Assembly: GCA_945860865.1 (NCBI GenBank)
Contig: CAMARW010000006.1
Span: forward strand, 62,001 to 126,000
DNA length: 64,000 nucleotides
Direction: 5' to 3'
Source of the DNA: Chitinophaga pinensis
GTDB lineage: Bacteria; Bacteroidota; Bacteroidia; UKL13-3
The notes below the pieces were generated by a model. That model did not search any database, was not told where the DNA came from, and saw nothing but the letters and a program-made list of their open reading frames with translations. Below, in pieces: positions 19,529 to 23,525 of this stretch. Numbering within the stretch: the stretch's first letter is position 1; every line of letters starts with the position of its first letter. The position numbers and the translations under genes are program-made.

Positions 19529-20782
19529 TTATTTTAACTTAAACGCTTTTTTCACTTTCTCTACCATGTCTAGTTTTTCCCAAGTAAATAGCTCTACTTT
19601 AAATTTAGCCATTTTACCATCTGGACCTTTAAACTCTTTGGTAACAATTTCATTCTTTCTACCCATGTGTCCGTATGCTGCAGTTTCGCTGTAGATAGGA
19701 TTGCGCAATTTTAAACGAGTTTCGATACCGTAAGGGGTCATATCAAAAAGTTTTGCCACAATAGCTGCAATTTCGCCATCATTCATCTTTACTTTAGCAG
19801 TTCCGTAAGTATCTACAAAAATACCCATTGGATCTTTTACACCAATAGCATATGATACCTGAACCAATACTTCTGAACAAACACCAGCAGCTACTAAGTT
19901 TTTAGCAATGTGACGCGTAGCATAAGCAGCAGAACGGTCTACTTTTGAAGGATCTTTTCCAGAGAATGCACCACCACCGTGGGCACCTTTACCACCGTAT
20001 GTATCTACAATAATTTTACGTCCGGTTAAACCAGTATCGCCATGCGGACCACCAATTACAAACTTACCTGTAGGGTTAATGTGGTATTTAATTTTGTCAT
20101 TGAATAAATGAGCAAATTTCTTGTATTTAGTTTTAACGCGAGGAATTAAAATCTTGATGATATCTTCTTTGATTTTAGCCAACATCTTAGCTTCTTTATC
20201 AAAATCATCGTGCTGTGTAGACAATACAATAGCGTCTATGCGAATAGGGTTATTGTTATCATCATATTCTAAAGTTACCTGAGATTTTGCATCTGGACGT
20301 AAATACTTAATCGCTTTGTTTTCGCGGCGTAAAGCAGCTAGTTCAATTAAGATTTTGTGTGCTAAATCTAAAGCTAAAGGCATAAAATCTTCTGTTTCGT
20401 TAGAAGCATAGCCAAACATCATACCTTGATCGCCGGCACCTTGGTCTTGCTTTTTCTTGCGATCTACACCTTGGTTAATATCGGCAGATTGCTCATGAAT
20501 AGCAGATAAAATACCACATGAGTTGGCTTCAAACATGTACTCACTTTTGGTATAACCAATTTTGCGAATTACACCACGGGCAATTTCTTGCACATCTAAA
20601 TAAGATTTAGACTTTACCTCTCCGGCTAATACAACCAAACCAGTAGTAACAAGGGTTTCACATGCTACTTTCGACTCTGGGTCGAATGCTAAAAAGTTAT
20701 CAATAAGGGCGTCCGAAATTTGATCGGATACTTTGTCTGGGTGTCCTTCACTTACAGACTCTGACGTGAATAAATAAGGCAT
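19529..20782 (-). CDS. metK: S-adenosylmethionine synthetase
   Basis: A 417-residue enzyme that makes SAM from methionine and ATP. It has [20 protein letters not shown] at the N-terminus, [12 protein letters not shown], and the P-loop-like [18 protein letters not shown], all diagnostic. Length is normal for this phylum. It is the only gene downstream of the structured leader at 20783-20944, and its own promoter is at 20949-20978. It ends at a strong terminator, so it is monocistronic. Confidence 0.97.
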
Positions 20783-20944
20783 ATTTAATTTTTAGTTTTA
20801 AGTTTATAGTTTTACGCTTTAAATAAAACATGTGGACTTTATTGTAACAAGGAGGAACTGTGTTTGACAAGAAAGTCCGCATTGTTTTACCACCGTGGTG
20901 TTCTTCCCGGTTGGCATCCCGCACATGTGCGGGATTCTTAATGC
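20783..20944 (-). ncRNA. Structured metK leader RNA, candidate riboswitch
   Basis: Read on the minus strand, the leader starts with GCAUU (20944-20940), which pairs with AAUGC (20883-20879). Inside are P2, the perfect palindrome AUCCCGCACAUGUGCGGGAU (20935-20916), and P3, GCCAACCG (20915-20908) with CGGUGGU (20895-20889), one bulged A. A second hairpin follows with no spacer: GGACUUU (20878-20872) with AAAGUCC (20840-20834), extended by UUGU/ACAA and AACA/UGUU. The P3 loop GGAAGAAC (20907-20900) and the second loop GUUCCUCC (20858-20851) match at 7 of 8 positions. I do not see the SAM-I or SAM-II core. The region 20783-20833 is AT-rich and unstructured. No feature is seen in 20979-21086. Confidence 0.6.
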
Positions 20945-20948
20945 ACTG

Positions 20949-20978
20949 CAAAAGTATTGGAATTATGTAAAAAACAAA
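20949..20978 (-). promoter_or_regulatory. Promoter of metK and its leader
   Basis: On the minus strand, -33 TTTG (20978-20975) and a perfect -7 TACTTTTG (20956-20949) are 18 bases apart. The predicted start near 20944 coincides with the first base of the leader's closing stem. Confidence 0.75.
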
Positions 20979-21086: not shown

Positions 21087-23525
21087 TTAGTCTTTAAAAA
21101 TAGCTTGCTTCATAAGAATATCGCGCTCCTCTTTAGTATAATTTTCTTTATTAAAAATGTCCTTAAATTGGGCTTGATAGCTTGCATTTGTGGCAAAATA
21201 GGCTGCCAATTCTGCTGCTGGTGAAGCTAATCTGCTATTGTTAGATAGCATGGCTTGCATGAGCGATTTGGCAACATCGTTTGTAAATGTGTAAGTAGAT
21301 TTAAGCACTAAAAATGCTTGGTTTCTAGTTCTAAATTCGTAGCCAGAACCTGCAAAAGAAATTAATTCTTGTTTGGCCGCTTCTGCCTGTATGTTGTTTA
21401 CAATACTTAACTCTAGCCACTTCATGCGCACGCTATGAAACATGCCATGTACCTCTTGGGTAACATTCAAAAATTTGGCTGCTTCGTTTGGATAGGCTAA
21501 ACATAATTTCTCTAAACTACTTTTTACCACATCGTAACTGCTATCTGTTAGTGCTGACTCAAAATAACTTCTGTTTTTGTTAGTTATAGGAATGGTTTTA
21601 ACAGCAAAATCTCTTACGGCAGCTTTCTTATTGGTAAACGCTTGTAAGACCATAGTTACACTTTCTTCTTTGGTATCTGCTGCCAATTGAGAAATAATTT
21701 CGTTGAGTATTCCTTCATGTTTTTCTTGCTTGAAAAGCTGGGTTAATGCAAATCTTTTTTGGTCTAATGAATAAGCTCTTAAACCTATTACCGCATCATA
21801 TCTATCTAACATTTGAGGCGCACGTTTGGCCTGCTCCACTAAATTTTCCAACGGCTTTTTAAACGTTACTTGTTTTAATACATGGGAGTTCGGGTCAAAC
21901 AAAACAAAAGCGATTTTTCTATTCCCAGCATTTGGAATTTTTACCACTTCAAAAGCTTCACTTATCATTTCATTTACTGCCGATACCGAGCCATCTGTAT
22001 AATAAACCTCTAGGCGAATGGGCATTTTAAAGGTACGCACAATTTCGTTCATTTCGTGAATTTGCTCAATCGCTATTTCTGTGGCGTGCGTTCCATCTAG
22101 GTAGCTTAAATCTTCGTAATGCACGCGGTAATGAGGCTCTCCACCACGCTGTATCCATTGATCGAAAAACCAGTCTAGGTTCAGCCCTAAAACGTCTTTA
22201 ATGGCTTGTTGCAAATCGTTGGTTTCTACATTAGCATAGGCGTGTTTGGCTAAGTAATGTTTTAATACCCTTTTCCATTGCTCTGAACCCAACACATATT
22301 CTAACATACTGATAACAGCAGAACCTTTTTGGTAAACCCTTGCGGTTCCGCCACCGCTTACGCGCACACCCAGAAAATCTTTTTTGCCTGCTTGTATGGC
22401 TGCATTTTGATGCGCCCTGCGTTGCCAATTCCATTCGTCGTCTCCATCTAATATTTTACTCAATTGTTTTGGGTAATAAGTAGCAAAACTCTCTTGTAGC
22501 CATGCATCTCTGCCATCTCGGGCAGTTATATAATCGCCAAACCATTGGTGGGTAAGCTCGTGGCAGTTTACACCTACATAGTTCCTGTCTAAATACGCGC
22601 GGGCATCTACGTTAAAAAAATCACCAAAAATGGTAGCGGTGGTATTTTCCATAGCGCCATATAAAAAGTCTTGCACCATAACCTGGCTGTAACTTTCCCA
22701 AGGATATTTTATACCTGTTTCTGCCTCTAAAAAATCTACCATCATAGGCGTGTATCTATAGGTTGGTTCAAGCCTATCTTTAAACTCTGGATAGTACCAA
22801 TATTGCAATGGCACACCGCTTTTGCTTTTAGCGGTAGCCACAGCATATTTACCAATGCCCAACATTAATAAATACCCCGCATGTGGCTTACTCATGGCGT
22901 AATGCCAGGTATTAGTTCCATCTTTATTTTCTTTTTTGCTCAGTAGTTTTCCATTGCTTAAAACCTGGTAATTTTTATCAAAAGTGGTAACGGTTTCGGT
23001 TATAAACTTATCGTTCATATCATCGTACATAGGTATCCAATGGCGGTTATCTATGCCCTGCCCTTGGGTCCATATTTGCTTGCGTACCGCAAAGGGATCG
23101 GCCGTTTTAGGCGCTGGTATATTCCATCCAATAAAGTAAATTCCTTTGCTTGGTTTGGCGGTATAGTTAAAAATTATTTCTCCAGTCTGATCCCATTGAA
23201 AGGGTGTGCTAGGAAATACCCATATTCCCGCTGCAACCGTTTTGTAAGCAAGTGGTTTTCCGTTAAAAGTGGCATTTAAAATACTAATTCCAGGGCCATC
23301 AAAAAATACCGAATCTACCTGTTTTTGCAATACCTTAAATTGGTGACTCACTCTGCCTTTTACCAAACTAGCTTCAGGCTCAAATGCTAGCTCTACTTTC
23401 ATTTTAATAATATCTAAGCCATGCTCTCTGTAAGTAGTTGCATCTTTATGGTAACTATTATAAGTGTATTGCGCTAAACACACCTGTGAGGTAATTATAG
23501 CTAAGGTTAATAATTTAAATTTCAT
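21087..23525 (-). CDS. M1 family aminopeptidase, exported
   Basis: An 812-residue zinc aminopeptidase with a signal peptide (cleavage near LAQY, residue 19). GAMEN is at 290-294, and the zinc site HELTH at 322-326 is followed 19 residues later by Glu345, the canonical HExxH-x18-E of gluzincins. The C-terminal third is helical and HEAT/ERAP-like. It removes N-terminal residues from peptides, probably in the periplasm or at the surface. It is transcribed alone upstream of metK. Confidence 0.93.
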   Translation of the reverse strand: MKFKLLTLAIITSQVCLAQYTYNSYHKDATTYREHGLDIIKMKVELAFEPEASLVKGRVSHQFKVLQKQVDSVFFDGPGISILNATFNGKPLAYKTVAAGIWVFPSTPFQWDQTGEIIFNYTAKPSKGIYFIGWNIPAPKTADPFAVRKQIWTQGQGIDNRHWIPMYDDMNDKFITETVTTFDKNYQVLSNGKLLSKKENKDGTNTWHYAMSKPHAGYLLMLGIGKYAVATAKSKSGVPLQYWYYPEFKDRLEPTYRYTPMMVDFLEAETGIKYPWESYSQVMVQDFLYGAMENTTATIFGDFFNVDARAYLDRNYVGVNCHELTHQWFGDYITARDGRDAWLQESFATYYPKQLSKILDGDDEWNWQRRAHQNAAIQAGKKDFLGVRVSGGGTARVYQKGSAVISMLEYVLGSEQWKRVLKHYLAKHAYANVETNDLQQAIKDVLGLNLDWFFDQWIQRGGEPHYRVHYEDLSYLDGTHATEIAIEQIHEMNEIVRTFKMPIRLEVYYTDGSVSAVNEMISEAFEVVKIPNAGNRKIAFVLFDPNSHVLKQVTFKKPLENLVEQAKRAPQMLDRYDAVIGLRAYSLDQKRFALTQLFKQEKHEGILNEIISQLAADTKEESVTMVLQAFTNKKAAVRDFAVKTIPITNKNRSYFESALTDSSYDVVKSSLEKLCLAYPNEAAKFLNVTQEVHGMFHSVRMKWLELSIVNNIQAEAAKQELISFAGSGYEFRTRNQAFLVLKSTYTFTNDVAKSLMQAMLSNNSRLASPAAELAAYFATNASYQAQFKDIFNKENYTKEERDILMKQAIFKD

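Follow-up and report, generated by a model that had tools for sequence, protein, structure and literature searches.

Identity of the metK leader

Which kind of RNA precedes metK in the stretch of 64,000 nucleotides analysed here (the window), and how might it control this gene? The leader lies on the minus strand between metK, whose start ATG is at 20782, and its upstream neighbour, an aminopeptidase-like gene (21087-23525) with NCBIfam matches below cut-offs. An initial annotation had described a stem P1 (20944-20940/20883-20879), a palindromic hairpin, a second stem and a long hairpin, all of which are indeed present, and had read them as a possibly undescribed SAM or methionine sensor of a class that it could not match. 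The leader is, however, not undescribed: across the whole 64-kb window, the sole Rfam match over a cut-off is that of the SAM-I/IV riboswitch RF01725 at this site, with 54.3 bits against a gathering score of 41.1, an E-value of 3.8e-6 and the full model length aligned (1-99 of 99; Table 1). Where Rfam families overlap, only the best clan member is listed, here RF01725, and this applies to SAM-I (RF00162).

Table 1. Coordinates of the metK locus features within the window.
Feature	Position	Strand	Basis
SAM-I/IV riboswitch aptamer (RF01725)	20850..20949	minus	covariance model score
P1 5' strand (P1a), GCAUU	20940..20944	minus	Rfam alignment, comparative alignment
P1 3' strand (P1b), AAUGC	20879..20883	minus	Rfam alignment, comparative alignment
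P2, palindromic uninterrupted hairpin	20916..20935	minus	Rfam alignment, fold, comparative alignment
P3 stem-loop, core motif CCAACC...GGUGG	20889..20915	minus	Rfam alignment and comparative alignment
PK2 5' strand, GAAC, in P3 loop	20900..20903	minus	own-versus-swapped test, 52 sequences
PK2 3' strand, GUUC, also within loop of anti-aptamer hairpin	20855..20858	minus	own-versus-swapped test
P5 (named as in an excerpt of PMC6890682), hairpin directly after P1, GAC/GUC	20866..20877	minus	Rfam alignment
arm1, anti-aptamer strand pairing J3/1, P1b and P5 5' strand (20888-20867)	20825..20845	minus	fold, duplex, shuffles
Possible degenerate arm2 counterpart (anti-P1a strand of relatives)	20816..20823	minus	weak
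metK, methionine adenosyltransferase	19529..20782	minus	NCBIfam TIGR01034, 521.2 bits against a cut-off of 309.4
Promoter -7 element TACTTTTG	20949..20956	minus	consensus and spacing as in an excerpt of PMC6847099

The conserved A-U/U-A pairs of P1, the GA of J1/2 and the P3 core are all present in the window, and their columns are invariant across 52 sequences. P2 forms an 8-bp stem (20935-20928/20923-20916) with no internal loop, while in the Rfam alignment the innermost model pair of P3 and the innermost of the four model pairs of P5 are non-standard. As a whole, the leader folds better than its dinucleotide shuffles (z -3.74 with 1/200 as good, and z -3.90 with 0/200 in a second run). Its J3/1 linker measures 6 nt and the P4 helix between P3 and P1 is absent; in the wider set of copies, J3/1 is 5-7 nt long in 73 of 85, the other 12 not having been parsed. 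Since the Rfam consensus of RF01725 also has an unpaired linker where P4 would be, and since we take membership to mean RF01725 as Rfam defines it, we treat the missing helix as peripheral and not as defining. The metK leader thus almost certainly belongs to the SAM-I/IV class, our confidence being slightly reduced by the absence of the P4 helix found in the crystallised member. The leader is very probably a SAM sensor, and this part of the original reading stands; the unmatched class falls with the RF01725 match, since that annotation had itself named a hit to a known class as refuting.

The two loops GGAAGAAC and GUUCCUCC are complementary at 7/8 positions, as had been claimed, though pairing over this full length would need the outer GG to leave the P3 stem. 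The contact itself is real, in that it corresponds to the PK2 pseudoknot and covaries in relatives by the own-versus-swapped test described below. That two complementary, covarying loops would mark a new class of SAM or methionine sensor with kissing loops is hardly credible given the full-length match to RF01725 above its cut-off and the presence of PK2 in the solved SAM-I/IV structure, as described in an excerpt of PMC5393176; kissing in the anti-aptamer state is conceivable, as the PK2 3' strand would then lie in a hairpin loop. A further suggestion, that the CCUCC loop mimics the 16S tail, is rejected because CCUCC occurs in 1/22 metK leaders of the family. We also considered a mobile repeat and discarded it, since the palindrome occupies one site of the genome even when 3 mismatches are permitted; the aptamer, too, occurs there in a single copy.

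Comparative support for the aptamer and PK2

Matches at E<=0.001 were found in 23/64 genomes of the family (29 copies), the order-level sample consisting of these same 64 genomes, and in 34/395 sampled genomes of the phylum, 30 of them over the cut-off. A pattern scan of genome contigs contributed 42 stretches, 23 of them repeating loci already collected, and covariance-model coordinates refer to the 84 loci that remain of 107 once these 23 repeats are set aside (no match at E<=0.01 was obtained for L037, L050, L104 and L107). The 84 loci yielded 87 matches and 85 distinct copies, among which close relatives (e.g., L041, L043, L045 and L047) are not independent. With a covariance model built here, the element was detected in 17/19 genomes of the genus; in genome G003, metK is matched from base 2 of its contig onward and over residues 246-417 only, which places the leader off the contig.

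Over the 52 aligned sequences, P1-P3 are paired at 95.9%, and 98 double-changed cells compare with 26.1 in shuffles (0/500 as many) that do not preserve relatedness; when the structure is slid, at most 51% of cells are paired. For PK2, strands scored a mean of 11.05 with their own partners versus 9.19+-0.26 with swapped ones, the maximum of 2000 permutations being 10.11 (52 sequences). The strands fall into types such as GAAC/GUUC, AGAU/AUCU, ACUCG/CGAGU and CGACA/UGUCG, of which GAAC/GUUC is the core common to most metK leaders of the genus, and the scan gave no convincing PK2 in some copies such as L014, L024 and L055.

Promoter and transcript start

An element of the form TAHHTTTG ends exactly 4 nt 5' of P1 in all 22 metK leaders of the family and lies at most 50 nt from P1 in 22 of the 63 other SAM-I/IV copies. 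In the window, this element is TACTTTTG, and a TTTG (20978-20975) is located 18 nt upstream of it. Probable promoters of Flavobacterium johnsoniae have 4 or 5 nt between a TAHHTTTG-type element and the start (excerpt of PMC6847099), and the 4-nt spacing seen here matches this, which is consistent with transcription starting from the first P1 base. We therefore agree with the initial annotation on this point and predict from the promoter that the metK transcript begins at or next to 20944.

A long hairpin opposing the aptamer

The strand that we call arm1 is complementary to J3/1, P1b and the 5' strand of P5 and, when paired, builds a long hairpin that is mutually exclusive with P1 and P5. This hairpin had been noticed before with an extent of 20878-20834, which is too short, as the fold runs through the P1 3' strand to about 20888/20825. 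The arm1 duplex of the window reaches -15.9 kcal/mol (z -4.48 versus shuffles), and arm1 beats dinucleotide shuffles at p<0.05 in 17/22 metK leaders of the family with a mean z of -2.94, the exceptions being L020, L021, L023, L026 and L029 (L020 and L023 borderline), versus 0/22 when the same query is applied to a control region 160-232 nt downstream of P1. Among the 63 other copies, only 4 pass for arm1 and 6 for the control region. Pairing with the own rather than a swapped partner is also favoured, at -15.46 versus -14.42+-0.36 in the family metK leaders (fraction 0.0017; control region 0.022) and with a fraction of 0.0007 in the 63 other copies (control 0.0083), but the control regions score low as well, so that this test partly reflects relatedness. 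Across 17 metK leaders of the genus, the segment comprising arm1 and arm2 has an identity of 0.55 versus 0.38 and 0.36 in its flanks. We conclude that the long hairpin is very likely the anti-aptamer half of a switch that uses arm1.

With SAM bound, P1, P2, P3 and P5 would form and the P3 loop would pair with the strand after P5 to give PK2. Once SAM is absent, arm1 would instead pair with J3/1 and with the 3' strand of P1 and the 5' strand of P5, and the resulting long hairpin would disrupt P1, a helix required for the SAM pocket, leaving the PK2 3' strand in the hairpin loop. Trausch et al. (2014) reportedly found that SAM binding stabilises PK2, which is part of the switch. The assignment of the two folds to the SAM-bound and SAM-free states is our inference, as is SAM as the ligand. 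Taken as a whole, the leader is likely a SAM-I/IV riboswitch that controls metK through arm1 switching, and feedback logic makes it probable that high SAM represses the gene.

The opposite sign would follow if the long hairpin were an intrinsic terminator at low SAM, with SAM turning metK on. The window hairpin is indeed strong and followed by the U-rich stretch GUUUUAUUU, but many relatives carry a GUUUGCUUAAU-like sequence there instead of a U-tract (seen by eye, uncounted), and such an arrangement would mean feed-forward control of SAM synthesis. A terminator scan of the minus strand found no terminator-like site, with a loop limit of 8 nt that would miss the long hairpin. We consider termination quite improbable and retain repression by SAM as the preferred reading.

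A 67-aa ORF with TTG start (20748-20951, minus strand) overlaps both the leader and, out of frame, the start of metK and is probably spurious; its inner AUG sits in arm1. An upstream ORF within the arms was considered as the switch and rejected, with an AUG in the arm region of 9/22 metK leaders and an overlap with the metK start in the window only (1/22). The possibility that the freed arm pairs with codons of metK was set aside by eye.

Output of the switch in metK leaders and in other copies

The other Bacteroidota copies are built differently downstream. In 39/63 of them, a further strand, arm2, has complementarity to P1a and J1/2 (1/63 for the control region), and own pairs reach -10.28 versus -7.25+-0.27 for swapped ones with 0/3000 as low. 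As an alternative, the same strand can form a helix next to or across the start codon in 28/63, again with own partners far ahead of swapped ones (-8.30 versus -5.18+-0.28, 0/3000 as low). Of the 63, 49 have an identified AUG, and in 19 of 21 significant cases with AUG the end of the pairing falls in a range from about 6 nt past to 3 nt before its first base, to within +-1 base in a search that reached 9 nt into the gene. As far as sequence comparison can tell, these copies fit a three-strand translational OFF switch that would operate without a Shine-Dalgarno sequence, which Bacteroidetes lack according to an excerpt of PMC6847099.

The metK leaders of the family depart from this pattern. In the window, arm2 against P1a and J1/2 gives -3.2 kcal/mol and a z of +1.47, which is not significant, and the start-codon hairpin gives p 0.409; across the family metK leaders, arm2 is significant in 5/22 (control 2/22) with own equal to swapped partners. 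The start-codon hairpin appears in 0/22 by one test and in 2/22 by another, so that there is no sign of the usual OFF output. On average, the region downstream of the aptamer is less structured than its shuffles (mean z +0.78, 22 metK leaders).

It could nonetheless be that these leaders use the same start-codon-sequestering platform in a form too weak or diverged for detection. The hairpin is seen in 28/63 other copies; two genomes of the same genus harbour second, non-metK copies that fit sequestration, namely L025 beside L013 in G011 (p 0.005) and L028 beside L012 in G001 (p 0.040; this assembly is 8% contaminated), and in one metK leader, L018, a pairing of the arms across the start codon is possible (p 0.017). 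This last case is, however, the only significant one of 21 when the arms are compared with the start region of family metK leaders (mean z 0.05), beside the 0/22 and 2/22 for the hairpin itself and the parity of own and swapped partners. Enforcing P1 lowers start-region accessibility slightly, from 0.63 to 0.57 in 20 metK leaders, but the drop is equally small in 21 other copies (0.52 to 0.48), so that this measure does not discriminate. We regard a hidden sequestering platform as rather unlikely.

Six of the 63 other copies precede other metK-like genes (L030, the second copies of L069 and L073, L076, L083 and L097), and 2/6, those of L069 and L073, have the start-codon hairpin, which suggests that the platform follows lineage rather than gene.

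For the output at metK, control at the level of translation is our best guess, held with slightly less than even confidence, and decay or Rho-type control may act instead. More speculatively, the combination of an aptamer and a conserved anti-aptamer helix with neither terminator nor start-codon hairpin, next to second copies in the genus that fit sequestration, could reflect a different output for metK, such as a long single-stranded leader whose exposure to decay, Rho or ribosome loading is under the control of SAM; we think this doubtful.

Relatives without the element and copies at other genes

One species of the same genus (G017) has a 98% identical metK with the same promoter, upstream gene and first leader bases, and the aptamer is absent (L108, 1400-1500). 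Unless caused by an assembly error, this is a natural deletion, and the element therefore appears dispensable. The same genome contains another metK, a partial one (L121, 223 aa matched) that also lacks the element. We further sought metK in 14 chosen genomes of the family, covering 12 genera and mostly without a SAM-I/IV match, of which 13 were positive with 14 loci (L119 and L120 lacking the N-terminal part). No R1 match lies in a leader, and one weak match was found elsewhere (15.3 bits, E 0.28). One family member carries a SAM-II riboswitch in its metK leader instead (L113, 1378-1438; 69 bits against a cut-off of 44).

Several SAM-I/IV copies precede proteins without known family (L007, L010, L025, L028, L034, L039, L046, L068 and L091); in a scan of 10 such proteins, 8 lacked any Pfam match at E<=0.1 and the remaining 2 had only matches below cut-off. 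Locus L098 has three SAM-I/IV riboswitches on one strand (265-1151, with downstream genes to 5474) that are followed by genes for an AAA ATPase, a DUF2201-like protein (just under the cut-off) and a divergent SAM synthetase, and another AAA ATPase gene follows a riboswitch in L052. PADLOC returned only weak partial matches. Groups of two to three copies within a few kilobases also occur in L068 (1811-2056 and 3440-3545, with two adjacent), L069, L073 and L034.

Comparison with known systems

With the metK leader assigned to a known class of SAM sensors and its loop-loop contact already known, the less ordinary part is the downstream half of the family metK leaders, which lacks the start-codon-hiding hairpin of many relatives. 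The copies provide a comparative case for riboswitch action in a phylum without Shine-Dalgarno sequences, and the occurrence of both leader types in one genus, together with a species without the element, offers a natural comparison. Titles and abstract openings in a literature search that covered few subscription journals gave no report about SAM-I/IV expression platforms in Bacteroidota. A preprint cited in an excerpt of PMC7366714 deals with thiamine pyrophosphate riboswitches that regulate transcription or translation in Bacteroides, so that the notion of translational riboswitches in this phylum is not new.

The 2010 description of SAM-I/IV variants gives their distribution as "Several phyla, marine" and has them lacking the internal loop of P2 (excerpt of PMC2864571). 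A 96-nt member has been solved (PDB 4L81), for which the available text of PMC5393176 mentions P5 and PK2, and a comparison with SAM-IV in part of PMC6890682 ascribes to the class an undivided P2 and no PK-1, but a P4 helix. Like RF01725, the window leader has P1, an undivided P2, P3, P5 and PK2 in the same order around the conserved core, and by eye the 96-nt sequence given in PMC5393176 shows the same elements. It differs from the class as portrayed in that part of PMC6890682 by its 6-nt J3/1 without a P4 helix, and from the solved member by a short PK2 core, the 3' strand of which falls within the loop of an anti-aptamer hairpin further downstream. With SAM-IV, it shares a PK-2 with P5 hairpin and the lack of P4, whereas SAM-IV has P2a/P2b and PK-1 in place of one uninterrupted P2 helix (same source).

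The SAM-binding core is common to the window leader and SAM-I (RF00162), again following the excerpt of PMC6890682. Unlike SAM-I, the leader has PK2, no divided P2 with its pseudoknot and no P4, and the loop-limited scan found no terminator. Its anti-P1 logic resembles that of SAM-I antiterminators. Set against translational riboswitches with sequester hairpins, as covered in part of the review PMC10907184, the metK leader of the window stands apart in showing no such hairpin, and its phylum in having no Shine-Dalgarno sequences (excerpt of PMC6847099), while many of its relatives are like them in that they can hide the start codon.
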